From contig NC_133398.1 of assembly GCF_047511655.1 (NCBI RefSeq), positions 108,020,332-108,084,331 of the forward strand: a stretch of 64,000 nucleotides of DNA, read 5' to 3'. This document shows, one piece after another, positions 7,860 through 55,205 of this stretch (position 1 is the stretch's first letter; every line of letters starts with the position of its first letter). This DNA comes from Castor canadensis (taxonomy: Eukaryota > Chordata > Mammalia > Rodentia > Castoridae). Position numbers and translations under genes: made by a program. The notes below the pieces were generated by a model. It did not search any database. It was not told where the DNA came from and saw only the letters and a program-made list of their open reading frames with translations.

Positions 7860-9600
7860 CCTAAGATATCAAAACCTGTGTGATGTCAATGCAGGAACTA
7901 GAAGGCCTTAAATAGTCTTAGATGGGAACATAGCAAAAGTCACCATTAAACAATGCAGTGGTGAATCTATGCATTCCAAGCAAGGCAAAATATTTGAGTT
8001 TTTAAAAATCTCTTTATTAAACTCCTGTGCTTTGGCTCCTGTTTTCTGAATGGTCTCTTCAGTGAGTGTGCATAATTCATGCAGGAAACATAGCCTTCTT
8101 CACTCCATAGGCCCCAAGAGAACGATGCTCATATCACTGTTCATGAGCTCAGCAAAAGGTAAATTTGATCACAACCATCACCATCAGTTTGAATCAATAT
8201 TTTAATTTTCTCCACATAGGACATGAGTATCCGTACACTATTAAAATGAACCATCTCAGATATAAGGTGTCTATGCCGCAAGGACCAAGAAAGTTAACCT
8301 CTCGGACCCTCCAGGATTCCTTCCAGAAGCAGATGTCCCCAGATCTGGAAGGATATTTTTTCTTCAGCCAAAGCACCCACCCAAAGGCAAGTAGGGGAAC
8401 AGTGAGTACCTCCTTCCCATCTTTCAAGTGTCATCTCTTAGCTCACACCTCCATTTCTGACCAACAAAATCCATGACACATAAGTATTCTCCCTATGGCA
8501 GAAGATGATATATGCAGAAACTGAGTACTCACTCAGAATCAGGCGTAGAATGCCTATAAAGACTGAAGTTAAGACCCAAGTCCTGTCTAGGAGGATTTTT
8601 TGATTCCTCCTCCCTCAGAGATAATTGCTCTCTTAGCTCTCTTATCTGTTTTCCCAGAGCACTTTAGACAAAGAGTTATGCATGCACACATTTGTGTGTC
8701 TCATTACAGGATGGTCTCTGAGTTCTGGACTCTCATATCTTACCCACCCCACGTGCCATTATCTGGGATGAGAGTAGTCATGACTGCATGACTTAGACAC
8801 ACTTGGAACTGATGGTCTTGAGCAAAGTATTATGGTTTTACATGGAATCTCTCTTTTATCTGGAGTGCCTTTTCGTCTAGAACTCTACTCCATGGCAAGT
8901 TTGCACTCTACAGGTAGAATTGTAGAGAACTTTATCAATTCAGGGACTTTTTATTCATCCTTCTTACCAGTTTTTTCCTCTAATGTTACAATGTTCTCCC
9001 ACTGATATTTCTTTCTCTGATACAAATATGTTATTAATTTGGGATATATTTTGGCTGGAAAAGAGTTTCTTATTTTGCTGTTGCCAGTGTTATTCTGTAA
9101 GCTCACAGCTTATAATTTTTACATTTTCTCATACCCTAATTCATTCTGGGACACTTTAAAACAGGTTGCTTTTTCACCCTATATTTTCATGGCACCCACA
9201 TAAACATTCATTCATAATACGATATTTCCCATCAAATAACATACATCATAAAAGGTCTGACTAAGTTTGAAAATATTTTTGAGAATATATTGGACTCGGT
9301 GTTCACTTTGCTTTCAGTCTTTTCTCATAGAATAGCTTGCACATACAGCTTTATATCAAGGGACAGGGCATTATTATTATTTTTTTTCAAATTAAGACTA
9401 GGTAATAGAATACATTAGGGTAATTTTTTAAATAATAAAATCAGAGAAATCAAGTTGAATACCATAATTTAACTTGTGTATTTACATTCATAGTCATCAA
9501 ATTTGTACATATTGTCATCCAGGAATATCCTCCAGGATTGAAGAATGTGCGTACTTTCTTCTTATCTACCTTTTGAATTGGTGGGAGTGTGTACAACAGA
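7860..9600 (+). repeat. Diverged local duplication, copy 1
   Basis: The order of blocks matches copy 3 (15400-17070). Shared blocks are the 'tctatgcattccaagcaa' block (7968-7985 versus about 15519-15536), 'agagcactttagacaaag...tgtgtgtctcatta' (8656-8707 versus 16136-16185), and the stretch ending near a 'ttgaattggt' block (about 9573 versus 17070). Divergence is high, with many indels, so the duplication is old. The unit has no recognisable gene. An apparent 103-codon frame at 8165-8476 is not preserved in the sister copy, so it is not supported as coding. Confidence 0.7.
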
Positions 9601-10429
9601 TAGAGAGTTAATTTTGATTCAGTTAGAGGCTGCTAACTGAAATGAAGAGAAGTAGAGCTTGTTTTGTTGGGAGATGACTGTTTCCTAGGCTGCCTTAAAC
9701 TATCTGAGTGAGGGATAAAGTAAACCTCATCAAGAGTGCTATGAATCATTCCTTGTTCTGAGGAGTGCACTAGTCCAATGAGGTATAGATGGTGTCATAC
9801 CTGCAGGTTAAATCAAGGAATTAAATCTAAAGGAGATTTTATTAAATAGTCCAAGTCAGTGGCAGAGTCAGAAACCCACAGTGGCATCTCTGGCATCTCT
9901 GTTCCAGCCCCACAATCATTGCCCCTGTGTTTATAGAAAAGCCAAGTGAGCAGTTATTTAAAGATTTGTGGTCAAATGTCAATATTCTTGCAAATCTTGG
10001 CTCATCTATTATCTTTCTAAATGTTTGGTACATGCTATTTATTTAATAAACTATGAATGTGCCATGATTGGGAAAACATTCATAGCTCAGGAGTAGAAAC
10101 TTTGGACTCAGTTTTGAACACAGACTACCTGGTGAAGTGACCAGAGGCTGACTGAGGATTAACTCAGGCAGGCTGTTTCATTAAGGCTATTCCCTTGATG
10201 AGATAGACTTGACCGTGGTTGCATGTTTGGGAAGTAAACAGAAGGAGTTTTGCTTTGAAAGTAGGACATTATAAGACAACTGCAGTTGATACCAAATAGT
10301 TTTATCTTTCAAAATGGGATATGGCATGTCAATTCAGGGATCATATTTACCCTCCAGAATCTTGTCCAACTAGGTGTTAATGGTCTGATTATACCATACC
10401 ATAGACCAGAGACAAATCTGTCTAGGATA

Positions 10430-11830
10430 CATTCACATGGAAAGAACTAAACTGAGTCTGATCAGGCCACTAGGTCTAACCATCAGTTAATTGGTTTTGA
10501 TAAAGAAGAATATATTAACACTACAAGGCAATGAACCAATTTCAGAAGGTCGTACAGTTACAGTACAAATGGCTCAGTTCCTCTACTATGCACTGCACCT
10601 AGCATACTAAAAAAGGAAAATGGTGGGAACAAGGTGAAAGGAATGACACATTAAATGCAATAATCTCCCTTCTTCCTCTACTTCAGAGCCAACCACAGAT
10701 AAAACAAGATGCCTTTTCATGAATTGTATATCTCATCGGCATTCTAGATCCTGCCACAATATTTTTTGGGAAGCCCCACCACCTGCAAGGACAGGACTAC
10801 ATGTCAGAACTTCTCCCACGGGTATTTATGAGAATAACAGTCCATCATTTACAATTCTGGGGAAAAGAGCTTGTTGTTACATATTATGTTTAAAAGTTTA
10901 CTGCCCTACAGAAGCAAATTCTGTTCATGATCTAAAGATTTAAGTGAAAAAACTCCTGATAAAAGCCTGAAAGTATTAGGTTTATGGGACATGTGTATCA
11001 TTTCCCAGAAAGATCCCAAATGGAAGCAAGAATCCCTCACACATGAAAAGGCAAATGAAGTGTCTAAGAAAAATGGACCCTTGCACTTTCAATACAGGAC
11101 AGTTCAACAAAGACTGACTTTCTATAAATTGAGTTTGTTTCATCACCTCATATTTTTTAATGCAAGAACATACACCTATTTCAAGGCAAGAACCTCCACT
11201 TTCATTGGTCACATAGAGAACATGAATTCTCATATCAAAAAAGATACATCACAAAAGACCTAGCTGAGTCTCAAAATATAATTTGGAAAGCACCAGACTC
11301 AATGGTACTGAATAATTTTCCTCACTGAATTGCAACACATAATAGCTTTGTATCAAGGGACAGAGCATTCTCAATTTTCCCACTGAAGCAAAATACAGAA
11401 TAATTTGGGCAATTTTACACATAATAAAATCAGAACAATAAGACAGAATACAATTCAACATGCATATTTACATGCACAGTAATCCAACATTTGCTCATGT
11501 TAAGAACATCCATCCTCCAGAATTTAAGAAGGTGTTTCTTTTTTCTCACCTTATGAATTGTTTGTGGTGTAAAGTCATGTAGAGAGGAGGCATTGTCTAA
11601 AGGCTATTTATTCAATGAATGGTATAAATTACAAATTATGTTTGTAATAAATGAAGATTTTTTTTTCAAATACTCCTTTCCTTCACCATTCACCCCTTAA
11701 GAAAGGCAGGGACTTGCTTCAGAGAATTTATCATACCAAGGAAATGTAAATTTGATTGCCAGTTATTACAAATTAACTTTCAAGAAAATTACTAACATAG
11801 GGCAATGTTTAGGCATCTTCATGGCCTAAA
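10430..11830 (+). repeat. Diverged local duplication, copy 2 (internally deleted)
   Basis: 10430-10930 matches 17910-18330: 'aagaactaaactgag' versus 'aagaacctaactgat', 'ctctactatgca', and a 'gagaataacagtc' type block. 10880-11100 matches 17270-17480, including an identical 'gtattaggtttatgggacat'. 11190-11560 matches 16690-17060 ('ttcattggtcacatag', 'agctttgtatcaa'). Compared with copy 3, the central part is missing between about 11100 and 11190. No gene was found inside. Confidence 0.7.
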
Positions 11831-12011
11831 GATTTATGTGAAAACCTCATGATGAAATACTGAAAGCATTAGGGTTATGAGACTTTGGTATGATTTCCTA
11901 GACGGATTCCTAACAGAACCAAGAATCAGTCACAAAATAAATAGGTAAATTATGTGTCTAAGAGAAATGCAGCCTTGCACATTCATACAGAGTTTTTTTA
12001 AACCTCAGAAT
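11830..12011 (+). repeat. Left flank of duplication copy 3, up to the retrocopy insertion
   Basis: Matches 17330-17490 in order: 'cctaaagatt', 'gaaagcattagggttatg', 'gccttgcacattcatac'. Homology to the sister copy stops at about 12010, which places the 5' end of the PPP4R1 retrocopy. It resumes at about 15300 ('cccatgcctcc...gagtgataatgg' versus 17528-17550). Confidence 0.65.
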
Positions 12012-12013
12012 AG

Positions 12014-14910
12014 ATGTGTGTTGATGCAGGTGAGCACTGGAGAGGCATCCCCTCTTCTGGCTGCCCACTCTGACCTGTCTTTCTTCTCTCCCAGGTGTAG
12101 ATGCTGACAAACTTGGTGTGGATGACTACAACTCAGAGTCTGGTGTGCTTATTACACACTCTGCCCTGGACTTTGTCTCAGAAGATGAAACGTTGACACC
12201 ACTGGGGAGACTGGAAAAGTACTCTGCAAGTGAGGACGTACTTAACAGGCAAATTGTGGCCCAGAATTTGCTGAACACGTTGAGGGAAGTCAGTGACAAT
12301 AAAAGACATTGTATTACAGTTTGGGAAATAATTACCCAATTAGCTGATGATCCAGAACCAATTGTGAGAGCAGAGCTGATGGAACAGGTGCCTCAGATTG
12401 CATTGTTTTGTCAAGACAACCAGACTTTCATAACAAATGCTTTTTCTAAATACTTACTATCTGTTTTGATTAGATATCTCTCAGATCAGAATAGTGTAGT
12501 GTGGAGAAAAAGTCAGGAAACTTTGATGGCTTTGCTGGAGGAGGAGTTGACTGAAAGATTTGACTTGGAAACCAAGGTGTGCCCTGTGCTTATGGAGCTG
12601 ACTGCCCCAGACAGTGATGAATTTGTGAAAGCAGAAGTTCTGCCTATCATGTGCAAGATGGTTCCCATGGTTGGGAAGTATATTACAAAATGTTTTATCC
12701 TCCCCAGATTTTGTGAGATGTGCTGTGATTATGGAATGTTTCATATTCGAAAGGTCTGTGCTGGTAATTTTGGAGACATTTGCAGTGTAGTTGGCCAGCA
12801 AGCTACTGAGGAAATGCTGCTGCCCAGGTTTTTCCAGCTGTGTTCGGATAATGAATGGGGAGTCTGCAAGGCTTGTGCTGAATGCTTCACGGCAGTTTCA
12901 AATGCAACAAGTCAAGAAATCCGATGGGACAAGCTATCAGCAATATTTGTGGACTTGATCAGTGATCCCTCACATCGGGTTCGCCAAGCAGCTTTTCAGT
13001 CTCTGGGACCTTTCATATCTACTTTTTTTAATCTATCTAGGTCAGGACAATATTTTGAAGGAGAAAGCAATCCTTCAGAGGATGTGTCAGAAGATAAGTA
13101 TAGCATAGGAGATCAAGACATCCCTAAGTATGGGCAGATCAGACCAGAGGCTGTTCCTTTGAATCTCAGCATCACTAATTCCAGTTTCAAACTGGGAAAC
13201 GCACTGGAAGATGGTGCTGCTGAAATTTGCCAGAACTGTACAAGTGAAATAAACATTCCAGTGGATAGCTCTTTACTCTGTACTTTGTCCTCTGAATCTA
13301 ATCAGGAGGCAAGTAGCAATGAGAAGGATGGAAATCTTAATAACAACCAATCTGCACTCCAACCAAAGGTTGGCACCAGTCCACAAGATTACACTCTCTT
13401 AGGTAAGAAGTTACCCAATTCACTCAATTTCTGGAAGACTCTTAGTTTTGAAATTGATCTAGCTGAAGAATTTGAACAGGACTCTGGGAAGAGTCTTAGC
13501 CCAGAGAGATCAGAAGAAGCACCTGAAGTCACCATGCCAGGTTCTCCAAACATCAACATGACTACAAGGAATGAACTGGAAAAACTGACAGAAAATCTGG
13601 AGCCCCACATTGATGGTACAGATGTCAAAGCACAGGTGGAAGAACTGTCAGCTGTGCTGCATGCTTCCAGTTTGGATGCTTATGAGGAGACCTTTCGTAT
13701 GGAAGAGAGGCATGAGCTGCAAGAAGATGTGGGTATAAATGAGCTACCAAATTCTAATGTAAATCTAGATGATTCTGTCCCTTTAATCAGTGATGCTGAT
13801 GAGAATAAAGACACCACTGCTCACTATGTCCACAGTGATGCAGATGTGAACACCATCAGTGACTTGAACCCTGAGGAAGAGAGGAGGCCTAAAGTGCAAG
13901 ATGTTGTACCCCAGGCTTTATTAGATCAGTACTTGCCAATGACAGATCCCTCTCTTGCAGAGATGGTTGATACTGAAATTGTTAAGCATTGTGCCTACAG
14001 CCTGCCAGGTGTGGCCCTAACACTTGGAAGGAGGAATTGGCACTGTCTGAGAGAGACTTACAAGATTCTGGCATCAAACACACGGTACGAAGTTCGAAGA
14101 ACTTTGGCATTCTCGATCCACATGCTTGCAATTATCCTTGGAGATGAGTTAACAGATGCAGATCTGGTTCCAATTTTTAATGGATTTCTAAAAGATGTTG
14201 ATGAAGTTAGGATTGGTGTTCTTAAACACTTGTATGACTTTCTGCATCTTCTTCATATTGACAAAAGAAGAGAGTATCTTTATGAGCTTCAGGAATTTTT
14301 AGTGACAGATAACAGTATAAATTGGTGTTTTCGAGCTGAACTGGCTAAGCAACTGATTTTCCTTCTACAATTGTATAGTCCCAGAGATATTTATGAGTAT
14401 TTATGTCCCATCGCTCTGCATCTCTGTGCAGACAAAGTTTCTTCTGTTCGTTCGGTTTCCTACAAGCTAGTCAGCAAGATTGTGATGAAGCTGCACAGAG
14501 AGACACCTGTGACCTTTGGAATAGATTTCCTCAATGAGCTGGTGGAGAATTTTGGGAGATGCCCCAAGTGGTCTGGTTGGCAAGCCTTTGTCTTCATGTG
14601 CCAAACTATCATTGAAGATGACTGCCTCCCCATGGACCAGTTTGCTGTGTATCTGATGCCACATTTGCTGACCTTGGTGAATGACAAGATTCCAAATGTT
14701 AGAGTGCTACTTGCAAAAACTTTAAGACAAACTCTCCATGAAAAAGAATGCTTCTTAGCCTCTGGCAGCTGTCATGAAGAAGCTGTGGAGCAAGCCATCA
14801 TGACACTTCAGATGGACCAAGATAGTGATGTCAAGTATTTTGCAAGCAAACATCCTGCCAGTAGCAAAATCTCTAAAGATGTCATGAGCACAGCTTCCTC
14901 AACCTACTAG
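12014..14910 (+). CDS. PPP4R1 retrogene candidate (PP4 regulatory subunit 1-like)
   Basis: The parent protein is a HEAT-repeat scaffold that binds the catalytic subunit PPP4C and directs protein phosphatase 4 to targets such as the IKK complex and HDAC3. Here one uninterrupted frame of 930 codons runs from 12118 (a GTG in the parental Gly-Val-Asp-Asp-Tyr context) to the stop at 14908-14910 and ends with the parental-type tail STASSTY. It has an N-terminal HEAT region (about residues 80-310, e.g. ELMEQVP, LPRFCEMCCD, VRQAAFQSLGPFISTF), an acidic low-complexity middle (about 320-600) and C-terminal HEAT repeats (about 610-910, e.g. CAYSLPGVALTLGR, CPKWSGWQAFVFMCQT). All internal introns are absent, so it is a retrocopy. 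The parental start exon is missing. A 943-residue product needs splicing of 12030-12094 from the ATG at 12014; without splicing the first in-frame ATG is at 12379 (843 residues). Many substitutions fall in normally conserved HEAT positions, so function is unproven. Confidence 0.8.
12030..12094 (+). other. Candidate 65-nt GT-AG intron upstream of the PPP4R1-like frame
   Basis: The segment begins GTGAGC after 'gatgcag' and ends in a strong polypyrimidine tract and acceptor ('ctttcttctctcccag'). Removing it joins ATG-TGT-GTT-GAT-GCA-G (from 12014) in frame to GT-GTA-GAT-GCT and then the whole PPP4R1-like frame. Left unspliced, an in-frame TGA lies at 12031-12033. Most likely the acceptor is the parental intron 1 acceptor kept in the retrocopy. 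The donor may be fortuitous, because 12018-12029 resembles the exon start at 12095-12106 (10 of 12 bases), which could also reflect a small duplication. Splicing is a prediction only. Confidence 0.45.
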
Positions 14911-15297
14911 ACAACCTGAACCTTGGGGTTCTTCTGCTTCCATGACAGCTGAAGTTCAATCTCCCCATAAAAGTCTGGAAGAGCTATGGGGGTAGAGGCC
15001 TTCTTCCCACTGACTTCTTCCAGGTTCCAGTTGCCTACACCCACTACCAGGGCTTTTAAGAGTCAGGAGAAACTTGAGGACTCTTTAGTCATGCTGTTAA
15101 GGTTATCAGGGTACAAGTTTTCCGATCTAAGTGCAATTTATTAATAAGATGTATAAAGAGAAAGATATATAAACTTTTGATTACTTTCTAGATGTTTATG
15201 AATAAATGCGATTTGTGAACAAATGTGAGTTATGACCTGTATGAATGATTTCGTGTATAACAGGAAAACTAGATAAACATACTTGTCTTTAAAAATA
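14911..15297 (+). other. 3' UTR and A-rich tail remnant of the PPP4R1 retrocopy
   Basis: Sequence after the stop up to the point where the host duplication resumes (about 15300). It contains AATAAA at 15201-15206 and an A-rich 'taaaaata' remnant at about 15289-15297. A possible decayed target-site duplication is 'acctcagaat' (12002-12011) versus 'acttcaatat' (about 15302-15311), which is a weak match. Confidence 0.55.
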
Positions 15298-17260
15298 TAG
15301 ACTTCAATATTATTCCCATGCCTCCATGAGTGATAATGGATTTTAAAGAGACATATCTTAGAGAGAGTTTTAGTTGTCAATTACCCAGTATTAGATAAAA
15401 ATAGAACATCTCAACAGCTGCCAGTGTGCAGAGAGGAGAACCAGGCATAAGCTAGATGACCATCTAAGTCTTCAGATGGGAGCCTAGCAATAGTCTTCAT
15501 TGTACAATGCACTAACACATCTATGCATTCCAAGCAAAGCAGTGCATTTATATTTATTTCTCTATTTTATGAACTCCTATGCTTATGCTTGTACACTTGT
15601 TTCCTACAGGGCTCCCCAGTCAGTGGTCATGATGCTCAGGAACCTGGCTTTTTTTGTTCACAAAGCTCCACAGAGCCATGCTTACACCAGTGTGTGCACA
15701 TGGTCATACTGAACTAGAATTGATCACATAGTCAATATTTTCCAGAATCTGAAAATCTCAAAGGAAATGGAATGAACCACATTGGAGACTCTGTGTTCCT
15801 TTCACTGGAAATAAGGAAGTCCCCCTTCTTTACCTACCCTCCAAGAGCCCATCCGGGAAAAACAGTTGCTCCCTATATGCAAGACCAACTCGTCATGAAG
15901 CCAGGGCTTTGAGCCAAAGGAAACAGGAGCAATGACTCCTATCCCCAACTTTGAGTGCCTCCAATGATTTCACACCTCCATACAAGAAGGTCATGACACA
16001 GCTATTCTCCATACAGAAGGAGGGTGTAGCATAGGCAGTATTCCAGTACCCATCCAGGATCAGGCTTAGAGTAAACTCCTCCTAGGAGGAGTTATTTTTT
16101 CATTTCTCTGGGGAAATAGTTGTTCTCGGTATGTCCAGAGCACTTTAGTTTTTTAGTTATGCATGTGCACATCTGTGTGTCTCATTAGAGTAGCATCTTT
16201 TAAAGTCTGGGATCTCATATGTTCTCTCTCCCAGAGTTTCACCCAGGATCCTGGGCCAGAACAGGACATGCCAAAATGACTAAATGACATAGGCATATTG
16301 GAATGGAGGGGCTTGAGTAAAGAGTTATGGTATTGAATGGAACCCATTCTTTGAAATGACATTGAGATTCTATCTGAATTCAGATCTAACTCTAACCCAT
16401 AGGAAGCTCACTTCCAACATCTGCTTCAGGTTGAACTCTATACTAGAGTCTGAAATTTTCACAGTTGTGGACTTTGTAATCTTCCTTCTTTCCATTTTCC
16501 CCTGCCATTCCAATATTCTCTCACTGCTGTTCTCTCTGACAGAAATTTAATGTTTATTCAGGAAGTATTTTCACTAGATTTATTGTTATTAATTTCTAAT
16601 TTTAAATTTTAATGACCCAAACCACTAACCCAAATCATCCCAGGAATGTTTAAAGGGGGTTGGGCTTATATACATTTAAATAACCTCAGCACATATTTTC
16701 ATTGGTCACATAGACAATGTCAACTCTCACATCAAATATGATGCATCACAAAAGGGCCAGCTAAATCCAAAAGTATGTTTTTTAAAATACGAGATTCAGT
16801 GCTTACATTGATCTGGTTCTTATCTTACAGAATTTCAGCATGTATAGCTTTGTATCAAGAGACAGAACACTCTCAAATTGCCCATTGAAGCAAAATATAG
16901 TATAATTAGGGCGATGTTGTGTATAATAAAATCAGAACAACACAATGGTATACAGCAGTTCAACATGCATCTTTACACGTGTAGCAATTCACCATTTGCA
17001 CATATTGGCATAGAGGAACATCCCCGAGGATTTAGCAAGGTGTCTTTGCTCTCTTCTTTCTCACCTCTTGAATTGGTTGTGGTTTAAAGCCATGCAGAAA
17101 GGGGGCATTGCTGAAAGGATATTTATTCAAAGAGTGTTACAATCTGTCTTTGAGTTAAATGAAGACTTTTTCCCCAAATATTCCTTTCCTCCATCCTTTA
17201 CTCTTTAATAAATGTAGGGCCTTGTCTAAGTAAACTGACGATACCAAAGAAATATGAAGA
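15298..17260 (+). repeat. Diverged local duplication, copy 3 (right flank and body)
   Basis: Continues the unit interrupted by the PPP4R1 retrocopy. It parallels copy 1 (7860-9600) and, towards its end, 11560-11830 of copy 2. Net of the retrocopy, the spacing between equivalent points at 11830 and 17330 is about 2.2 kb, which is the repeat period. No gene was recognised. Confidence 0.65.
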
Positions 17261-18340
17261 GAACATTGCTTGTTGTTACATATTATGTTTAAAAATTTAC
17301 TCTCCTAGGGAAACAATCTATTCATAACCTAAAGATTTTACATGGAAAACTCATGCTAAAACCTGAAAGTATTAGGTTTATGGGACATGTGTACAATTCC
17401 CTAGAGAGATTCCAAATGGAGGCAAGAATCCCTCAAAGAATGAATGATGAGTTCAAGAAAAATGGAGCCTTGCATATTCATACATACTTTTTACTGCCTC
17501 CAAATACAGGTCAGCAGAATTTATCCCATGCATACAAGAGTGATAATGGAAATAACAAACAACCCACTGGATTTGAAATTGACCTATGTTCAAAGGAGAG
17601 CCACACACCAGTTAGGATTAGACAGAAAATAGAATATCTTAACTGATGTCGATGTGCATAGAGTAGATCCAGGCAGATCCTAGAAGGTCCTAAATAGTTT
17701 CAGATGGGAAAAAAACAAAAGTCATCATTGTCCAGCACACTACCAGATCGATGTACTCCAAGCAAGGCAATAAATGTAAGGATTTTTTCCCTCATTGTTT
17801 GAATTCCTATCCTTTGAACCTGTTTTATGCATGGCCTAGGATATACTCATCATGCTCAATCAGGAGATGGCCTGGTGATGCAATTCTGTATACCACAGTC
17901 AGCACTGTCTGAGAAGCATTCCTATGGGAAGAACCTAACTGATTTTGATCAAACCACTTAGCTTAGCCATCAGCTTACTGTTTTGCAGAATTAATATATT
18001 AACAATGCAAGGCAATTAGACAGTTTCAGAATGTGGGTTATTTATACTACAAATGATTCAGTTTCTCTACTATGCATTGCAACAAAAATGCTATAAAATA
18101 GAAATATTGTCAACAGAGGTAAGCTATTTAAACCACTCTATACTATAATCTTCTTCCTTAGATAGATTTAGAGCAGAAGAAAGTTAAAAGGATGTAATTT
18201 TTATGAATTCGATATCTCAGTGGAGGCTCTAATACCTGCATGGCCACCATATCCCCAAAGATAGGAAAGGTCTTTGGAAATTCTCTCATGGCTGTTTGTG
18301 AGAATGACAATCAGCACACCCCAATTCTGGTTGGTTTATT
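17261..18340 (+). repeat. Diverged local duplication, copy 4 (partial), with the empty site
   Basis: Repeats the same block order: 'ttgcttgttgttacatatta', 'gtattaggtttatgggacat', 'gccttgcatattcatac', 'gagtgataatgg', 'ctccaagcaaggc', 'ctctactatgcattgca'. The point equivalent to the retrocopy insertion (about 17480-17530) is continuous, so this copy shows the pre-insertion arrangement. Homology fades after about 18340. Confidence 0.65.
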
Positions 18341-21207
18341 TTTGTTCTCTGTACTTCTCCTGAGGAGCAAAAAAGTGGGCTAGTGTGTCCATTGTTCTCA
18401 CTGAACTCCACCCACAAATAGAGAAATCTAAACTTTGGCTTAGAAGTTTGTTAATAATACTCATGGAATAAAAATTTGAGGCATTTCAGAAGTATGTAAG
18501 GCAAGCACCACAGGAAAATACTCATCTATTTTGCTGGTTTCAGTTAAGTCCCACATATACGTGATGGACAAATCCAATGGGATCCGTGAATATGAACATC
18601 TGAGTCCCCCTCCACTCACATTCACATTCTCCCTGTGTATTAGTTGAAAATATCTTTCAAGGATATTTTTAACTTTGTTTTTTGGATTTCAGTCATTTAA
18701 ACATAAAGATTCATCAGCTTGGCATCTACCAATCCTTTAATCCTAACACAATGCATCAAATGAAAGCCATAGGGATTGGATTATATTATCTGAAATTAGT
18801 GCCCTAAATTGTCAGTGGACATTTATTGAATGTCCAGTATCCCACAAAGCAGTATACTGGATGCAGAGAATTTTATAGCAGATTCGAATGAGTATATTAT
18901 ATCAAGTACTTGATAGTGAATACCCCATGTCTTGCATCTTTCACAAAATCCTGTGTGTCAGATATGGTCTCCGTCATTCCAAATTCACAACTGGAATGAA
19001 GAAAATCTCTGTAAAGTTATTTACTGTGCTCAAGGCCAGTCAGAAAATCCTCTTTGGTTACCTCCCTCTGACACTTTCACCACCAGAAGCAGAAGACAAG
19101 AATAAAAGGAAAGAAAAGGCTGTTGAGAAGGAAATGTAATCAAGAAATTTTCATATAAGGGATGGATTTTGAGCCTGATTTGAAAAGAGTCTTGGAAATA
19201 CAGGAAGTGGGAATGGGGATGTAGTCACTTACAGGAGAATAAAGAAATGGGAAATGAGTATAGCAATCTCCATTTTGGGGAAAGACATCCACATCAGGGT
19301 ACAATGAAAAATGAATAGTGGAGTAGGAGAGGGAGACTCAACAGAAGCCTGCAAACAAAAGTTTGAGGTAAAAGCATCCATTCACTGAAAAGAAAAACCT
19401 GATCCAGAGTTTAAAGTTTTTCAGGGTATGAACATAGAATGAATTGATGACAGAGCATATATTTAAAGGCACCAAACAAATTTAAAATTAACTTCATTGC
19501 TCTTAGCTTTAGGACTATAATCTCTCACTCCCTCATCTGGGCTTTCAAGAAGGGGTCAGGTTCGTTCTCTGTGCTTATGTACAGGAAATACCATGAACTT
19601 TCCTTTTCCTTCCTTCTGCAAAGGATATACTTTTCCTTATCAATCAAAAAGGGTCTGTCACAGAAGACATCTTCAGAAATACAAGCAGTATAAAGTTCTG
19701 CAGAGGACTAAAGTAGGAACTAAATTCTGGAGTCAGCATGGATATCAATGGGGGAATATGCCTTTTTGGTTGCACAAATATTAGAGTTAGGGAAAGTTCT
19801 AGAATTATCCAAGTAGAGCTGCATAACTTAGAAACTGTATGGATGGTTTCCATCATCATCATTACTCAGTAAGAATAGGCAAAATACACTACTGAAAATC
19901 TGGAAAATTGAAGAATGCATAACAAAGTCAAAACTCAGGGAAGCTACTCTGATTGTTACAAAACCTGATATGTTAGACATGTGGGGTATAATGACTCCAA
20001 TATTGTTGACCCACTTGGTGGCTGTCATCAATAACTTTTATGTTTAACCCACCACTAACAGTTGCAGTTACAAAGCACACAACTCCTGTAACAATTCATT
20101 TCTTCTAAATATGACTCTTGACCTGAGTGTAGTAGCCAAATGTAGCTCAGAATTCTGAAGATTCAGTTGAATTATACAAAAAGTAGATAAGCTTTAAATG
20201 ATACAACTAAGTCTCTGTAGTATTTTAAAACAAAATATTACAAGTGAGAAAGAGTTTAATTAATCCATATTTGTGCTTTTTAATAGTTCTGAAAGCATAT
20301 GATAATGTGGTAATGAGTGCAAAAAGTTTCTTAAAAACATTTTAGAATCTCTGCTGAACTTGGTCCTTCCCTATGTTTTCTGAGTGCTTGGCTACTGTTC
20401 ATTAATGGTTTATTGCTGACAGTTCAGTAATGGTTTATGGTCAGTGAGTACTATGCTGAAACTATAGCAATATAGAGTAGGGATCCAAATAAATTGATTG
20501 TTGACCTCTAGAAAGTACACACTTGAAATGGATTTCATTTTCTAGCAAGATATAGAGTTACCATTTTCAGATTTTCCAACTTGGCCTGGATAATACTATA
20601 TCAGATAATTGTAGAGTTAAGCTATCCTAACCTAGAAATGAATATGTAACCATGGCAACATTAAATATACTTAAGCTTTCTATAACCAGTAATAGTGAAT
20701 GCCCTTGGATTATTTTTCTTGGGTCATGTGCTGGGTTTACCACCAAACACCACCAATGAATTCTGTCTCACAGATCCCAGGAAACCATAGGGGAGACACA
20801 TATGATTGGTTTTGAAAGTTCAGTGTACAGCAGGCAAATGTGTTCCAGAAACCTTCCAGAACCCAGAGCTCAAGTTCTTTCTCTCTACATACTGGGCACA
20901 TTCCATGGGAATCACAGTGAGAAACCAGAGCCACAACAGGAAGGGATTCCCACACATAACATGTTTCAGCAGCAGAAGGACTGTGACTTTGTCTATTGTC
21001 TTCACTTTTCAATCTCCAGTACTACACCCCTGCTTGTTACAAACAGCAGCTCATAAGGTATTAGGATCAGTGAATAATTTCTATAATAGATGTATTTGAC
21101 TATTTGGTAAAAACTATGTTAACAAGGTGTGCCTTTGAAGCTAGCATGGTGATATGTCAACTTCTCATTCTTACAGAAAAATTTACACTTCACATTTTTG
21201 CTTTTTT
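18341..21207. other. Non-coding stretch, nothing firmly recognised
   Basis: AT-rich sequence with only accidental short frames. The overlapping frames at 20737-21099 on both strands have no family signature and no splice context, and I do not support them as genes. Confidence 0.4.
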
Positions 21208-21490
21208 TCTTGATGGTTCTGGGGTTTATGCTCATGGCTTTGCACTTGCTTAGCAGGAAATCTACCATTTGATCCATTTCCCCTGACCCTTTTTCCTTCT
21301 GTTTATCTCTTAGACAACATTTCATGCTTTTTCTCAGGCTGGCCTTAGATGAAGATCATCATATCACTCCCTCTCACCACACCCAGTTTGTTGAGTTGGT
21401 GTCTCACTAATATTTTGCCTGGACTTTCCTTGAACTATAATACTCTCATCTCTGCCTCCTAAGTAGCTGGTACTACTGGGATACACCAAA
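21208..21490 (-). mobile_element. Composite SINE (tRNA-derived plus B1-like), minus strand
   Basis: The plus strand shows the reverse complement of a tRNA-like head ('gcacttgcttagcaggaaat', 'ctaccatttgatccattt'). It is followed by B1-like text ('ctcaggctggccttagatga', 'tgcctcctaagtagctggta', 'gggatacacca'). A duplicated B1-like portion lies in between, so this is an old compound element. Confidence 0.7.
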
Positions 21491-23894
21491 CTCTTAATAA
21501 ATTTTAATAGGCCTAGTATTATAGTATTGAGATATATTAATCAACCATTTAAACTAACTATGTAGGCAACTAAGGAAGAAACCTACACTTGTATTTCTGT
21601 AGCCCTGGCATTCAGAAGTCCAAATGTTGGATATATCATCATGCAGATTAAGTTTTCATTTTGTGGAGGGTTTTCATATGTTTTAATCCTAGCGATTGAA
21701 AATAGTAATGTGTAGTTAATACAGATTTGAGGGCCTTTCCATGTCTTTTGCTTCCTAGTTTAAGAGTTGATAGTTTATATAGTTAAGAGAATTGAAGAAT
21801 GAAGTTGTTAAAAGAATTTTCGCCCAAGGAATACACATTGCTCAAGTTGTAAAATCCACCCCTCACTTAATATGTGTTCATAAGTATTCAGTTCCATTGT
21901 TCAGAAAGTTTATTGCTAAGAATTAAAAGCACTGCATTCAAGAAATAATCAACATGTGTATACATATTTCTTTCAAGAAAATAGAATTTAGGATGATTTC
22001 TCACTTGTGAATTTTAACCCATCTGACTTATGTCAACGAGAGGAAGTTTCAGATGGTAGCTGTATCTTCACTCCCATCACTTCCCAGACTATGCTTTCAT
22101 ACTTATAGTTTGAAGTGGAAAGTTTGAGCCAAGGTCTATATAGGTCGCTGCTGGGGTTGCTCTGAAGGAATTGGCATCTAAACTGAATTTTTCTCTTAAA
22201 TTCTTTCCCCATAAGTTTTCTAATTTAGATTTTTCTATAAGAATAATAATATTTTGCCTATATAAAGATTTTCTACAAACTATCAGCAGAAATATCAAGG
22301 CAATGAAGAGAACATAACTGCAGTCTAGAGGTAATGATGCAGCAACTTGTCTATTCTACACATGACTCAAAATTGCAATTAGTATATTCTTAGAAAAATA
22401 TTATCTTATGTCTTATAGTTTGAGCAGCTAAAGTAATGTCCAGTGCCAAAAATTTCATGTGGTCATGCGTGGAAGCCAGTTCAAGAAGATATGTATGTCT
22501 CACTACTCTAAGTTATTGTTTCTCTACTAATGTTGTAGAATATTTGACCATGGGTACACACTTTGAGTACCCATGCCACTGATGAAGAAATTCACTGATA
22601 TCCTAAAGAAATTAGAATAATAATGTACCCCAACTTTGTTTAATAGTTATCTAACCAAAGAAGTTCATGTCTAATTGAAGAATTGAACTCAAGTAAACAT
22701 TTTTGTATGCATTATTTCCTAGCATGAATGGCATTGATAACAGAGCTTTGGGCTTTTGCCAGTAAGCAGCATTCCAAAGTTTTACTTTAAAAATGAACAG
22801 AGAATTTCCTATTTAATTTTTTAATTTTATCCATAAGCTTTTAGTTGAGCATATTGTAGAATGTTACTGGAGTCTTAAACATCCTGATATTAAATTAGAT
22901 GTTAGTGACATTTTCTAAGGGTAAATACACTGTAGTGACATACAGGATGTATTCTAAGTCATATTTTTAAGACATGATCTCATTGCTGTTGCATTTTCAA
23001 TAGCATATGTCACTGAAATAGAAAATTTCCTTTTCCTTTCTCCATATTTACAACTTCCTAAGTAAAATTACTTGGATTAAGTGTGTGTTTTTCTGTATTT
23101 TAGAATAGTTGCCAAAGTACAACATTCCTCTATTAAACCAACTTTTGGTAATGTTGTACAATGTTCAGAAAAATGCCTCAGCAAATAAAGTGTCATCATA
23201 AAATTTATTCATGTGCTTATTAGCAAGTCTTCTGTGGAGGCATACTTCCTGAATCACAGTAGTAGAAAAGATCCTATCCACAAAGATAATGGGGTTTCCT
23301 AATTTTTTCCATAGGGAAGCAGTGACCCCAATTTAAGGCTGAAATTCAGGATAACTACGACTGATGTTTTCCTTTTTCTAAGTACATAATAAGTTTCGAA
23401 CCTCTGGGTTGGCCCAGTCATTTCTCCCACTTTGCTGAGATGTTGGAAGATAGCTTGTTAAGGAAAAATTGACAGAACCCAATTCTTCATTTCTGTTCAA
23501 GAGGCAGAACAGTAGATTGACTAATGGAGTAATGGTAGAGAAAACACAGGCTTTGGTAGATTTCCCCCTTCCATATTCACTGACAACAACTCTTGTAATT
23601 TTATCATTAGCATACTTTTAAAGTATGCTATGCTCCATGGTACTGTAACTGCTGTCAGGGAAGAGACTATCCTGCTCTTCACTGTATCCCTAATAGTTGG
23701 CAAAGATTTTGGGCTTCTCATGAAGTCCAAGTTTGTTGAAGATGCCATGTAAAATGAAAAAGAAGGGAGGGGAAGATTGACTACCTGAATTATCACTCTG
23801 CCCATTGAGCATGTTCAACACTGACCCACTGCCCTCAATTGAAGGATCAGAAAAGGATATTAACCTAGATCCAAAGTACCTCACAAAGACATTT
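21491..23894. other. Non-coding stretch, nothing recognised
   Basis: AT-rich DNA. A 94-codon minus frame at 23521-23805 lies in it, but neither strand gives a protein family I recognise, and it is not supported as coding. Confidence 0.4.
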
Positions 23895-32074: not shown

Positions 32075-32191
32075 TAGAATACTCAGGGCTGGCGGAATGG
32101 CTCAAGTGGTAGAGCACTTGCCTCACAAGCATGAGGCCCTGAGTTCAAACCCCAGTACTGCAACAACAAAAAAAAATTAATAGAATACTCA
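32075..32191 (+). mobile_element. tRNA-derived SINE with perfect 11-bp target-site duplication
   Basis: The body at 32086-32180 starts 'gggctggcggaatggctcaa', has 'gtggtagagcacttgcct' and 'gagttcaaaccccagtact', and ends in an A-rich tail. It is flanked by identical TAGAATACTCA at 32075-32085 and 32181-32191. Intact boxes and a perfect duplication indicate a fairly recent insertion. Confidence 0.93.
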
Positions 32192-48837: not shown

Positions 48838-51800
48838 CTAATGTCCACATATGAGGGAGAACATACGGTTTTTGGTCTTTTGGGCCAGGCTAACCTCACT
48901 CAGAATGATGTTCTCCAGTTCCATCCATTTACCAGCGAATGATAACATTTCGTTCTTCTTCATGGCTGCATAGAATTCCATTGTGTATAGACACCACATT
49001 TTCTTAATCCATTTGTCTGTGCTGGGGCATCTTGGCTGTTTCCATAACTTGGCTATTGTGAATAGTGCCGCAATAAACATGGATGTGCAGGTGCCTCTGG
49101 AGTAACAGTCTTTTGGGTATATCCCCAAGAGTGGTATTGCTGGATCAAATGGTAGATCGATGTCTAGCTTTTTCAGTAGCCTCCAAATTTTTTTCCAGAG
49201 TGGTTGTACTAGTCTACATTCCCACCAACAGTGTAAGAGGGTTCCTTTTTCCCCGCATCCTCGCCAACACCTGTTGTTGGTGGTGTTGCTGATGATGGCT
49301 ATTCTAACAGGGGTGAGGTGGAATCTTAGTGTGGTTTTAATTTGCATTTCCTTTATTGCTAGAGATGGTGAGCATTTTTTCATGTGTTTTCTGGCCATTT
49401 GAATTTCTTCTTTTGAGAAAGTTCTGTTTAGTTCACATGCCCATTTCTTTATTGGTTCATTAGTTTTGGGAGAATTTAGTTTTTTTAAGTTCCCTGTATA
49501 TTCTGGTTATCAGTCCTTTGTCTGATGTATAATTGGCAAATATTTTCTCCCACTCTGTGGGTGTTCTCTTCAGTTTAGAGACCATTTCTTTTGATGAACA
49601 GAAGCTTTTTAGTTTTATGAGGTCCCATTTACCTATGCTATCTCTTAGTTGCTGTGCTGCTGGGGTTTCATTGAGAAAGTTCTTACCTATACCTACTAAC
49701 TCCAGAGTATTTCTTATTCTTTCTTGTATCAACTTAAGAGTTTGGGGTCTGATATTAAGATCCTTGATCCATTTTGAGTTAATCTTGGTATAGGGTGATA
49801 TACATGGATCTAGTTTCAATTTTTTGCAGACTGCTAACCAGTTTTCCCAGCAGTTTTTGTTGAAGAGGCTGCTATTTCTCCACCGTATATTTTTAGCTCC
49901 TTTGTCAAAGATAAGTTGCTCATAGTTGTGTGGCTTCATATCTGGATCCTCTATTCTGTTCCACTGGTCTTCATGTCTGTTTTTGTGCCAGTACCATGCT
50001 GTTTTTATTGTTATTGCTTTGTAATATAGTTTGAAGTCAGGTATTGTGATACCTCCTGCATTGTTCTTTTGACTGAGTATTGCCTTGGCTATTCGTGGCC
50101 TCTTGTGTTTCCATATAAATTTAACAGTAGATTTTTCAATCTCTTTAATGAATGTCATTGGAATTTTGATGGGAATTGCATTAAACATGTAGATTACTTT
50201 GGGGAGTATCGACATTTTTACTATGTTGATTCAACCAATCCATGAGCATGGGAGATCTCTCCACTTTCTATAGTCTTCCTCAATCTCTTTCTTCAGAAGT
50301 GTATAGTTTTCCTTGTAGAGGTCTTTCACATCTTTTGTTAGGTTTACACCTAGGTATTTGATTTTTTTTGAGGCTATTGTAAATGGAATTGTTTTCATAC
50401 ATTCTTTTTCTGTTTGCTCATTGTTAGTGTATAGAAATGCTAATGATTTTTCTATGTTGATTTTATATCCTGCTATCTTGCTATAGCTATTGATGATGTC
50501 TAGAAGCTTCTGAGTAGAGTTTTTTGGGTCTTTAAGGTATAGGATCATGTTGTCTGCAAATAGGGATATTTTGAGAGTTTCTTTACCTATTTGTATTCCT
50601 TTTATTCCTTCTTCTTGCCTAATTGCTCTGGCTAGGAATTCCAGTACTATGTTGAATAGGAGTGGAGATAGTGGGCATCCTTGTCTGATTCCTGATTTTA
50701 GAGGGAATGGTTTTAATTTTTCTCCGTTAATTATAATGCTGGCTGTAGGTTTGTCATATATAGCTTTTATAATGTTGAGGAACTTTCCTTCTATTCCTAG
50801 TTTTCTTAGAGCTTTTATCATGAAATGATGTTGGATCTTATCAAAGGCTTTTTCTGCATCTATTGAGATGATCAAGTGGTTTTTGTCTTTGCTTCTGTTA
50901 ATGTGGTTTATTACGTTTATTGATTTTCGTATGTTGAACCACCCCTGCATCCCTGGGATGAAGCCTACTTGGTCGTGGTGAATAATCTTTTTGATGTGTT
51001 GCTGAATTCGATTTGCCATTCTTTTGTTGAGGATTTTTGCATCAATGTTCATTAAGGAGATTGGCCTATAGTTCTCCATTTTGGAGGTGTCTTTGCCTGG
51101 TTTTGGGATAAGTGTAATACTGGCTTCATAAAATGTGTTTGGCAGTTTTCCTTCCCTTTCTATTTCATGGAACAGTTTAAGGAGGGTTGGTATCAGTTCT
51201 TCTTTAAAGGTCTGATAGAATTCAGCAGAGAATCCATCAGGTCCTGGACTTTTCTTTTTGGGGAGACTCTTGATTGCTGCTTCAATTTCATTTTGTGTTA
51301 TAGGTCTATTCAGGTGATTAATTTCCTCTTGGTTCAGTTTTGGATGATCATATGTATCTAGAAATCTGTCCATTTCTTTTAGATTTTCAAATCTATTTGA
51401 ATATAGGTTCTCAAAGTAGTCTCTGATGATTTCCTGGACTTCCATGGTGTTTGTTGTTATCTCCCCTTTTGCATTCCTAATTCTACTAATTTGGGTTTTT
51501 TCTCTCCTCATTTTAGTCAGGTTTGCCAGGGGTCTATCGATCTTGTTTATTTTTTCAAAGAACCAACTTTTTGTTTCATTAATTCTTTGTATGGTTTTTT
51601 TGGTTTCTATTTCGTTGATTTCAGCTCTTATTTTTATTATTTCTCTCCTTCTATTTGTTTTGGGATTTGCTTGTTCTTGTTTTTCTAGGAGTTTGAGATG
51701 TATCATTAGGTCATTGATTTGGGATCTTTCAATCTTTTTAATATATGCACTCATGGCTATAAACTTTCCTCTCAAGACTGCCTTAGCTGTGTCCCATAGG

Positions 51801-52657
51801 TTCCGTTAGGTTGTGTTTTCATTTTCATTGACTTCCAGGAACATTTTAATTTCCTCTTTTATTGCATCGATGATCCATTCTTCATTAAGTAATGAGTTAT
51901 TTAGTTTCCAGCTGTTTGCATGTTTTTTGTCTTTACTTTTGTTGTTGAGTTCTACTTTTACTGCATTGTGGTCAGATAGTATGCACGGTATTATTTCTAT
52001 TTTCTTATATTTGCTGAGGCTTGCTTTGTGCCCAAGGATATGATCTATTTTGGAGAAGGTTCCATGGGCTGCTGAGAAGAATGTATATTGTGTAGAGGTT
52101 GGATGAAATGTTCTGTAGACATCTACTAGGTCCACTTGATCTATTGCATATTTTAGATCTTGGATTTCTTTATTGAGTTTTTGTTTGGATGACCTATCTA
52201 TTGATGATAATGGAGTGTTAAAGTCTCCCACAACCACTGTGTTGGCGTTTATATATGCTTTTAGGTCTTTCAGGGTATGTTTGATGAAATTGGGTGCGTT
52301 GACATTGGGTGTGTACAGATTGATGATTATTATTTCCTTTTGGTCTATTTCCCCTTTTATTAGTATGGAATGTCCTTCTTTATCTTGTTTGATCAATGTA
52401 GGTTTGAAGTCTACTTTGTCAGAGATAAGTATTGCTACTCCTGCTTGTTTTTGGGGGCCATTGGCTTGGTAAATCTTCTTCCAGCCTTTCATCCTAAGCA
52501 TATGCTTATTTCTGTCGGTGAGATGAGTCTCCTGTAAGCAAAAAATTGTTGGATCTTCTTTTTTAATCCATTTTGTCAAACAGTGTCTTTTGATGGGTGA
52601 ATTAAGTCCATTAACATTAAGTGTTAGTACTGATAGGTATGTGGTGATTCCTGCCAT
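48838..52657 (-). pseudogene. L1 ORF2 (endonuclease/reverse transcriptase), broken
   Basis: About 1272 codons if read through its lesions, the normal ORF2p length. The endonuclease keeps N14, E43, D145, N147, D205, D229 and H230. RT motifs follow, including [15 protein letters not shown] and [17 protein letters not shown]. The C-terminus keeps the CX3CX7HX4C motif (CWRGC...HCWWEC). Lesions: TAA at residue 284 (51806-51808, one change from Tyr TAC); TGA at residue 809 (50231-50233, one change from Arg AGA); an extra A in a 7-A run (about 49480-49486) that shifts the frame near residue 1057; and FADD altered to FADN (residue 703, codon 50549-50551), losing the second catalytic Asp. Any one of these should abolish ORF2p activity in cis. 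Confidence 0.95.
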
Positions 52658-52707
52658 TTAGTTATCTTAGTTGTTTGAAGGTTTGATTGTGTGTACCTAA
52701 CTTGATG

Positions 52708-53910
52708 TTACTCTCTACTGTCTTGCTTTTTCTTATCCTGTGGTTTGGTGCTGTCTGCCTTTTCATGGTTAAGTTGGGTGTCACTTTCTGTGTGCAGGAT
52801 CCCTTGCAGAATCTTTTGTAATGGTGGCTTTGTGGTCACATATTGTTTTAGTTTCTGCTTATCATGGAAGACTTTTATTGCTCCATCTATTTTGAATGAT
52901 AGCTTTGCTGGGTAGAGTATCCTGGGGTTGAAGTTATTTTCATTCAGTGCCCAGAAGATCTCACCCCACGCTCTTCTTGCTTTTAATGTTTCTGTTGAGA
53001 AGTCTGCTGTGATTTTGATGGGTTTACCTTTGTATGTTGCTTGTTTTTTCTCTCTTACAGCCTTCAATATTCTTTCCTTAGTTTCTGAACTTGTTGTTTT
53101 AATGATGATATGTCGTGGAGTAGTTCTATTTTGATCTGGTCTGTTTGGTGTCCTGGAGGCCTCTTGCATCTGTATGGGAATATCTTTCTCTAGATTTGGG
53201 AAATTTTCCGTTATTATTTTGTTGAATATATTATGCATTCCCTTCGCTTGCACCTCTTCTCCTTCTTCGATGCCCATGATTCTCAAGTTTGGTCTTTTGA
53301 TGGAGTCAGTGAGTTCTTGCATTTTCTTTTCACAGGTCTTGAGTTGTTTAATTAATAGTTCTTCAGTTTTTCCTTTAATTACCATTTCATCTTCAAGTTC
53401 TGAGATTCTGTCTTCTGTTTGTTCTATTCTGCTGGATTGGCCTTCTGTTTTGTTTTGCAGTTCTGTTTTGTTCTTTTTTCTGAGGTTTTCCATATCCTGG
53501 CTGTTTTCTTCTTTATTGTTGTTTATTTTTGTCCTGAGTTCATTTATCCATTTATTCATTGTGTTCTCTCTTTCACTTTGGTGTTTATACAGTGCTTCTA
53601 TGGTTTCCTTTATTTTTTCTTTTGCTTTTTCAAATTCTCTATTTTTATTGTCTTGGAATTTCTTGATTGTCTCCTGTACATTTTGGTTGACCCTATCCAG
53701 TATCATCTCTATAAAATTCTCATTGAGTACTTGTAGTATGTCTCCTTTTAAATTATTCTTGTGAGCTTCATTGGGTCCTTTGGCATAGTTTATCTTCATT
53801 TTGTTGGAGTCTGGATCTGAGTTTCTGTTCTCTTCATTCCCCTCTGGTTCCTGTACTAATTTTTTGCTGTGCGGAAACTGGTTTCCTTGTTTTTTCTGTC
53901 TTCCTGTCAT
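52708..53910 (-). CDS. L1 ORF1 (nucleic-acid chaperone), intact
   Basis: A 400-codon frame starting at the ATG at 53910 with A at -3. The frame is open further upstream, but that part is 5' UTR. ORF1p trimers coat L1 RNA in cytoplasmic particles and act as nucleic-acid chaperones. Here a basic N-terminal segment is followed by a long coiled coil (about residues 60-200, many E/K/N heptads). An RRM domain (about 205-300, with RPNLRIMGIEEGEE) comes next, then a C-terminal domain (about 300-370, with NNFNPRILYPAKLSF). There is no stop or frameshift. It could in principle act in trans if expressed. Confidence 0.93.
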   Translation of the reverse strand: MTGRQKKQGNQFPHSKKLVQEPEGNEENRNSDPDSNKMKINYAKGPNEAHKNNLKGDILQVLNENFIEMILDRVNQNVQETIKKFQDNKNREFEKAKEKIKETIEALYKHQSERENTMNKWINELRTKINNNKEENSQDMENLRKKNKTELQNKTEGQSSRIEQTEDRISELEDEMVIKGKTEELLIKQLKTCEKKMQELTDSIKRPNLRIMGIEEGEEVQAKGMHNIFNKIITENFPNLEKDIPIQMQEASRTPNRPDQNRTTPRHIIIKTTSSETKERILKAVREKKQATYKGKPIKITADFSTETLKARRAWGEIFWALNENNFNPRILYPAKLSFKIDGAIKVFHDKQKLKQYVTTKPPLQKILQGILHTESDTQLNHEKADSTKPQDKKKQDSRE

Positions 53911-55205
53911 TGTCCTTGGTGTTGTTACTGTCCCTGTACTGTGTGTAATTAAGTATTTTCTAGCTTGTAATAATAACAATGGTAATATTGAGAATGGAAG
54001 AGTGAGCTGAGATGGAAAGCAAGAAGTTAAAGAAAAGGGGAAAACAAATATACAGACAAGAGGGAGAAAGCAGAACAAGGTATCAGACAAGAGAGTTTCA
54101 AAGGTATAAACAGGGAGTGTTAGTGTGCTAATCAACAGTAAGCTGAACAGACAATAGAGAGACAGAGAGAGGATTGAAAATCAAAGATAAAAAAAATAAA
54201 AAATAAGTACATGAAAGTAATATCTATATATAAAAATGAATTAAAATAAAATGGAAAATAGAAAATTAAAAAAAAAAACCAAAAAACTTCCAAGTTTATA
54301 TGCAATGCAATTTCAGTCTTAATAATTTGGATGTCCGTCTCAATCTCCAGTCCTGAAGTTGCAGGTGTAATTCGGTTGTTCTCTCATCAAAGGTAGGGAG
54401 AAAAAGAAAAAAAGGCGTCTGGAGGCAGTTCTGAGAGTGGTATCTGCAACTGTGGCTTGCCTGCCTGCTGCTCTCAGCCTGTAGCTGGTGGCGTTATTTA
54501 TGCAGATCTCTGGGGTGAGCTTAGCACTCACCTGGTCCCACAGGCTTTGTTTGCTCAGAGTTCTCCTGTGCGGAGGCCTCTGCCACAGCCTTTCCCCTTT
54601 CCAAGCACTGGGAAAGGTGACACTGCCCCGCGTTGTCAGGCCTGCGTGTTTATTTACAGTTCACGTGGGAAGTGGGTCTTCCCTCCTCTCACAAGCGTCC
54701 CCGCTCCTGGTTGCTGGGCGCGCCCCGCTCCCTCCAGAGCCTCTCCAGCCCGCCCGGCTCGTTTATTTACAGTCCCGGGAAGGCTTCCCTTCCCCCAATC
54801 TTCAGCGCTCAGGGCGCCCCACCCTCTTTCCAACGTGTCTTAACTGTTCTTATTGCTTAGTACTCAGTTTCTCTTTTTTTCCCGGGTGGAGGTCAGTCTG
54901 TCCAGAGGGCTATGCTGCTCTGGCCCAGGCTTGTCTGTGGGGGAACCGCGGTACCGCGAAGCTCACCTGGTCCGCGTCTTCCCAAGCCGTATGGGCGCCG
55001 GCCCCTGGCGGCCCGGGGGCCTCCTCGGTTCTCCGTTTAACGTGAAGTGGAGATTCTCTGCACCGGCTGGAGATGTGGAGGGGTCAAAGTTATGCCTTTT
55101 CTCGGTGATTATACCTGCAAAGTGTGTCTCCAGCGTCTCTCCAAGATTTCACTATAGGAGGGTCGCTTTCTGCTTCCTCCCTCTAGCCGCCATCTTGGAA
55201 TTCCT
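53911..55205 (-). promoter_or_regulatory. L1 5' UTR / internal promoter with CpG-rich start
   Basis: About 1.3 kb between the 5' end of the L1 and ORF1. The first 700 bp (about 54500-55190) is G+C- and CpG-rich, unlike the AT-rich surroundings, as expected of an L1 internal RNA polymerase II promoter and methylation target. The remainder towards ORF1 is A/T-rich. Confidence 0.85.
55186..55197 (-). promoter_or_regulatory. YY1-type site at the L1 5' end
   Basis: The plus strand reads GCCGCCATCTTG, so the L1 sense strand reads CAAGATGGCGGC, the canonical YY1 core, within 20 bp of the element's 5' end. In human L1 a YY1 site at this position sets the transcription start. Confidence 0.8.

Follow-up and report, generated by a model that had tools for sequence, protein, structure and literature searches.

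A semi-processed PPP4R1 retrocopy with a predicted new first exon, multiplied in the beaver genome

The stretch of the beaver (Castor canadensis) genome analyzed here, 64,000 nucleotides long and called the window below, carries one member of a family of PPP4R1 retrocopies. The most satisfactory account of the family, which is probably correct, is that a semi-processed retrocopy gained a new 5' exon, was amplified, and was used as a protein-coding gene in the past, and that the window copy is still open and may encode 972 residues. An old PPP4R1 transcript still bearing the end of the short intron 1 would have been reverse-transcribed and inserted once. The 3' splice site carried in with it would then have been joined to an exon in the upstream flank, which would have contributed the start codon and 34 new N-terminal residues. 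Segmental duplication would then have raised the number of loci to at least 23. The copies would long have been kept protein-coding under weak amino-acid constraint and strong frame constraint; most would have broken later, and five, the window copy among them, are open today. This copy may be either a working gene or one only lately freed from constraint.

A Processed Copy of PPP4R1

The earlier note on this DNA described an intronless, PPP4R1-like open frame of 930 codons, and the frame is real. On the plus strand of the window, the open reading frame listing gives a stop-free frame from 12034 to a stop codon at 14908-14910. Its 930 codons beginning at a GTG span 12118-14910, and homology to the PPP4R1 coding sequence begins at about 12095. 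The encoded protein aligns with Castor PPP4R1 (P0003) over 918 residues at 74% identity with no gaps, ends in the same C-terminus, and matches three Pfam HEAT families above the cut-off.

The parental gene, on contig C4, has about 20 exons by our count spread over about 77 kb. The retrocopy is a single block from parental exon 2 onward and lacks introns 2 and later, and the description as intronless holds only for this retrocopied part, since an upstream exon and intron are predicted (Table 1). Homology stops about 20 bases beyond the parental ATTAAA, itself 979 bases past the parental stop. The absence of parental introns after intron 1, together with a 3' end at the parental poly(A) site, identifies a processed retrocopy of PPP4R1. 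What is left of a poly(A) tail and target-site duplications is a short A-run and degraded candidate duplications; by eye, both junctions of the retrocopy align to one and the same stretch of an empty unit, AAATACAGGTCAGCAG.

Table 1. Features of the PPP4R1 retrocopy and its surroundings (window coordinates)
Feature	Position	Strand	Remarks
Predicted upstream coding exon	10687..10821	+	Preceded by acceptor ...ACTTCAG; ATG 10719; 103 coding bases; donor G/GTATTT
Predicted intron GTATTT...CTCTCCCAG	10822..12094	+	Final bases are the parental intron 1 tail brought by the retrocopy
Candidate left target-site duplication remnant (AGAATAG)	12007..12013	+	Low confidence; by-eye alignment
Retrocopy 5' end (start approximate)	12020..12094	+	Polypyrimidine tract and AG of parental intron 1 matched by about 25 bases (12070-12094)
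Main coding exon (PPP4R1 retrocopy; all parental exons from exon 2 on, fused)	12095..14910	+	About 938 codons plus stop; includes the 930-codon frame 12118-14910
Retrocopied 3' UTR	14911..15290	+	Ends at a parental poly(A) site; lacks about 650 bases found in the genomic 3' region of the parent
A-run and candidate right target-site duplication remnant (AAAAATATAG)	15291..15300	+	Low confidence
Diverged local repeat of the flank without retrocopy (empty site)	16697..17840	+	Homologous to 11200-11997 and 15387-15584

Compared with the parental DNA of the same genome, the window copy differs in amino acid at 233 of 860 comparable codons (dN 0.161, dS 0.252), with 70 of the 930 codons excluded as intron-split, at exon ends, or containing N. 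A small synonymous divergence would have voided the earlier argument from the open frame, and the value found is large: at a dS of 0.25, recency is no explanation for the frame. It is unusual for a retrocopy this long to be still open at 25% synonymous divergence.

Among the best 120 of 1537 database matches listed, the closest protein is P0001, annotated as "PPP4R1-like" from Castor canadensis, with 41 differences; no other species among these 120 has a close match, and none of them is from Castor fiber. P0001 is a RefSeq protein model that agrees letter for letter, over all 972 residues, with a sister copy, L003. The gene for P0001 lies 18 Mb from the window copy on the same contig, C13, and the two are paralogues.

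Other features of the window include long minus-strand frames at 48838-54180 that by eye resemble L1 ORF1 and a broken ORF2, two overlapping plus-strand frames at 54397-55045 that look GC-rich, and two tRNA-family matches (32091-32163 and 57239-57312), perhaps derived from SINEs.

A Family of Copies in One Genome

The copy had been taken for a single intact retrocopy; it is instead one of at least 23 related loci. The assembly searched (2.81 Gb in 181 contigs, with the window at C13:108020332-108084331) contains at least 68 stretches matching PPP4R1, from the best 49 of 78 candidates scored. By our own grouping there are at least 23 loci on seven contigs (C1, C3, C7, C9, C10, C13, and C19), a count that omits the parent on C4 and an intron-containing, exon-by-exon match on C5 (L032). 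Five of the 23, namely the window copy, L003, L015, L016, and L017, read through all their mapped codons without a stop or a change of frame. L002 has two stops and L004 one, L036-L039 have at least two frame changes each, L031 is a fragment of 184 codons, and L040 is decayed, with 19 stops.

Copies open to comparison share their flanks. Matches to the window copy's 5' flank lie at L002-L010, L012-L017, L020, and L030, and those to its 3' flank at L002-L011, L014-L019, L030, and L031; the two flanks are partly alike, so some of these matches represent local repeat. In most cases divergence is greater in the flanks than in the coding part, and neither flank matches at L032. The flank unit without a retrocopy (16697-17840) has its longer genomic matches at or near the PPP4R1-copy loci, among the best 40 of 354 candidates, as does the stretch 20000-21500, among the best 40 of 774. 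Shared flanks and repeat-unit matches at the copy loci point to one retroposition followed by segmental duplication, and on these alignments the loci, at least 23 in number, are read as a single insertion spread in that way.

Two other origins were considered and set aside. Because the flanks are alike, the retrocopy could have been the cargo of a transposable element or have sat between two LTRs, but the longer matches of the flank units track the PPP4R1 copies (again among the best 40 of 354 and of 774 candidates). An X-linked ampliconic family is also unsupported: a query with Xist exon 4 gave two weak partial matches, on C20 and C27 and below the curated cut-off (best 43 of 227345 candidates), which gives no support for C9 or C13 as the X. 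Old local repeat units, 66-80% alike, surround the retrocopy at window positions 7900-18100; by our own reading they are spaced about 2.2 kb apart.

A tree of 24 rows places the window copy with L002, L003, and L004 in clade A. The remaining groups are A' (L009 and L010), B (L007 and L008), C (L012 and L013), D (L005, L006, and L030), and E (L014-L017, L031, and L036-L039), with L040 apart; L036-L039 were taken with insufficient flank, and it is the tree that puts them inside clade E. The order of the deepest splits is weakly supported (55/93 and 44/64), and the protein tree neither establishes nor rejects a grouping of the retrocopy with just the Castor parent (AU p 0.339). By our own reading, no stop or frame change is common to all members within clades A, C, D, or E, so the ancestors of these clades look intact.

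Clade E is located on C9 (L014-L017 and L036-L039) and C10 (L031). Its members lack codons 336-575, in the low-confidence middle of the protein, and the frame is unbroken in L015-L017, which have open frames of 768-769 codons. By eye, the N-terminal leader of these three looks doubled and resembles parental exon 2. C9 also has near-alike copies in opposite orientations (67581722/67747531, 51843228/52826328, 32383305/37306955, and 58.8-63.9 Mb), which suggests inverted duplications. P0121, a 524-amino-acid JGI protein whose contig measures 3.3 kb, shares 98% identity with L016 and is probably beaver host DNA inside a metagenome. The match at L032 (C5:177404000-177413999), PPP4R1-like exon by exon and with introns, is perhaps PPP4R1L.

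A Predicted Upstream Exon and an Inherited Splice Acceptor

The window copy appears, from its sequence, to have gained a new first exon. The predicted upstream exon would encode the new 34-residue N-terminus MNCISHRHSRSCHNIFWEAPPPARTGLHVRTSPT; the peptide of P0001 is located at window 10719-10826, and excising the predicted intron yields the same 972-codon structure as P0001. The main exon contains no Met codon until about the hundredth residue, so the GTG at 12118 is an artefact of the ORF finder, being merely the first GTG. The protein of the window copy is predicted to start instead at the ATG of the upstream exon, and the two exons together may encode the 972-residue product.

The acceptor of the predicted intron can be traced to the parent. 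Parental intron 1 is 213 bases long by our reading, and its tail aligns with the window over 23 bases (CTGACCTGTCTTTCTTCTCTCCC versus CTGACCGGCCTTTCTTCTCTTCC, E 0.001). Copy L005 retains part of parental exon 2 and matches across the junction of intron 1 and exon 2 over 61 columns (E 5e-9). With the tail of intron 1 lying directly 5' of the coding part of the copy, the template RNA must have started in intron 1 or retained it. A splice acceptor arising de novo was considered and dropped, given these two alignments.

The RefSeq model of P0001 splices the intron-1-derived acceptor to an exon 1.3 kb upstream. The acceptor AG is present in the compared copies of clades A, A', B, C, and D; clade E differs in that stretch. 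The ATG, frame, GT donor, and acceptor tract are conserved in L003, L004, L007, and L013, where the comparison for L003 and L004 starts only shortly before the exon and L007 and L013 are about 22% diverged. The upstream exon is interrupted by a stop in L002; in the window copy, the exon, donor, and acceptor are all intact. No match to the exon was found in the remaining copies, some of which were included with too little flank to tell. Residues 1-60 of P0001, used as a query, matched only P0001 itself (22 candidates), which leaves the upstream exon with no known donor gene.

Frame Conservation and Amino-Acid Selection

Over its whole history, the frame of the window copy is intact beyond neutral expectation. 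Along the path to the window copy the expectation is 14.1 stops against an observed count of zero, and forward neutral simulation to the same divergence gives a mean of 10.6 stops, with none of 1000 runs stop-free. For clade D, the expectation as we correct it is about 12.8 stops instead of 14.1. Frameshifting indels were counted in the coding part and in the flanks, which are more AT-rich, so that the two rates are perhaps not strictly comparable. Between the window copy and L005 there are 0 in 2781 coding bases and 31 in 2107 flank bases. For L015, the counts are 0 in 2034 and 28 in 1413, or 21 in 1039 when the alignable 3' flank alone is used; the L015 5' flank is 44% different and aligns poorly, and its 7 frameshifting indels are to be discounted. 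The corresponding coding and flank figures are 1 in 2729 and 30 in 2151 for L007, 2 in 2748 and 24 in 2008 for L013, and 4 in 2714 and 23 in 2100 for L012. In the decayed A' copies they are 5 in 2762 and 16 in 1890 (L010) and 7 in 2760 and 13 in 1730 (L009). The earlier expectation that a neutral copy this diverged should carry stops and indels is well founded, with 10-14 stops expected against none. For the recent part of the history, the evidence for frame-keeping is the four-way comparison of clade A, where 0 indel events in 2817 coding columns stand against 10 in 2454 flank columns, a contrast that, given the AT-richer flanks, is no more than suggestive.

Constraint on the amino acids is of another order. 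A branch-class codon model for 17 of the 24 tree rows (L008, L030, L031, and L037-L040 omitted) gives a dN/dS of 0.707 on the deep branches to intact-looking ancestors, where a value of 1 is rejected (2dlnL 20.07). The value is 0.858 on the branches of broken copies (2dlnL 2.77), 0.938 on young branches, where 1 is not rejected (2dlnL 0.21), and 0.331 on the parental branch taken together with the family stem. A model with all copies neutral is rejected (2dlnL 23.39, 3 df); setting deep and broken branches equal is not, the difference between them being nonsignificant (2dlnL 2.62). The stem path of the window copy alone has a dN/dS of 0.734 (2dlnL 4.78). Amino-acid constraint is thus real but weak. 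Pairs within clade A have a dN/dS of 1.05-1.46 (dS 0.014-0.022), with none differing from 1, and variable columns are about as frequent in the coding part (103 of 2817) as in the flanks (97 of 2454). The simulated neutral expectation is 228 changed codons, compared with the 233 parent-window differences observed, which include the parent's own changes. The proposal that the copy was, or is, under selection is upheld for the past by the deep branches, the missing stops and frameshifts, and the large dS; for today it is not, with recent branches indistinguishable from a dN/dS of 1 and stops in two of the four members of clade A.

These results bear differently on the alternatives. A processed pseudogene evolving neutrally, with a frame open through luck alone over its whole history, would agree with the near-neutral total of amino-acid change, but such a history is extremely improbable in the face of the simulations, the lack of any frameshift relative to L005, and the intact-looking ancestors of clades A, C, D, and E set beside the 19 stops of L040. 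Chance is refuted for the deep history and may hold for the recent part alone. Another reading is quite possible, though not the one favored: the family was once functional, and the window copy has since become a young pseudogene, open only through the recent duplication of its clade. The near-neutral dN/dS of the recent branches and of the clade A pairs would be expected from it, as would the stops in L002 and L004, and by our own arithmetic each lineage should have gained only about one stop since the clade A ancestor, which makes an open copy unremarkable. The absence of coding indels in clade A and the intact upstream exon, donor, and acceptor of the window copy speak against this reading.

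It is also very unlikely, if less so than an unbroken run of chance, that the copies work as RNA, for example as endo-siRNA against parental PPP4R1. PMC5408686 reports small RNAs mapped to the mouse retrocopy Gm15681, antisense to Ppp4r1, and several beaver copies lie in opposite orientation. RNA function does not, however, account for the conserved frame and missing frameshifts, and the window copy stands at a dS of 0.25 from the parent. The preferred reading remains a coding past for the family, with the window copy either active or lately released.

The Predicted Protein

Changes in the protein reach sites that are otherwise fixed. At 119 of 625 sites (19%) that are invariant in 22 other mammals, the window copy and P0001 both depart from the mammalian mode, as they do at 29 of 92 nearly invariant sites and at 80 of 221 variable ones; among the variable sites, the Castor parent itself departs from the mode at 58. 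By region, sites changed in both copies make up 24% of the N-terminal HEAT block, 35% of the middle, and 15% of the C-terminal HEAT block. The window copy and P0001 differ from each other at 41 positions, which show no preference for the middle region.

An AlphaFold model is weak overall (mean pLDDT 61, pTM 0.46), with helical repeats kept in both HEAT blocks and a low-confidence middle. The pLDDT is mostly 65-90 at residues 31-310, about 70-90 at 631-860, and 42-63 in the last 80 residues. The Pfam matches and modeled helical repeats give the HEAT-repeat architecture of a PP4R1-type subunit, and the copies were most likely kept as a PP4R1-like HEAT scaffold, which the window copy may still encode, with PP4C binding suggested by ancestry. 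The loss of codons 336-575 in clade E without loss of frame fits the HEAT scaffold as the part that matters. Splicing, translation, and a scaffold role in PP4 are what we infer from the sequences.

Relation to Known Retrogenes

Rodent preproinsulin I is an example of a semi-processed retrogene. The PPP4R1 parent and the window copy share the same HEAT-repeat protein and C-terminus, and the window copy has a predicted new N-terminus. PMC3565874 reports intron gains in human retrogenes, and its abstract names intronization, inserted sequence, and reversed orientation as mechanisms. The beaver copy is like these semi-processed or intron-gaining cases in being a retrocopy with an intron, using a cryptic or inherited splice site. 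Unlike the mechanisms named there, its acceptor is the retained tail of a parental intron, joined, as predicted, to an upstream coding exon derived from the flank. Retrogenes with host-derived upstream exons, covered in PMC5408686, are similar in that a retrocopy is joined to upstream exons and differ in that the beaver exon lacks a known donor gene. The same paper describes Gm15681, a mouse and thus rodent retrocopy of the same parent, as a source of small RNAs. Among the matches listed from open-licence full texts, no account of a beaver PPP4R1 retrogene family was found, nor any paper there that treats beaver together with PPP4R1.

Implications for the Beaver Lineage

The amplification provides its own internal controls: a single genome contains intact, newly broken, and wholly decayed descendants of one insertion. 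It also offers an example of a retrocopy that brought along a splice acceptor of its parent, which by prediction was afterward put to use for a new coding exon. More tentatively, the beaver lineage may possess a family of PP4R1-like scaffolds founded by one semi-processed retrocopy with its own acceptor, the frame guarded and the protein fast-changing, in which the window copy, L003, and the shorter L015-L017, their disordered middle lost in frame, would be making variant PP4 scaffolds today. If true, such a family would resemble fast-evolving reproductive or immune gene families, and it raises the testable question of why a phosphatase scaffold multiplied in beavers.
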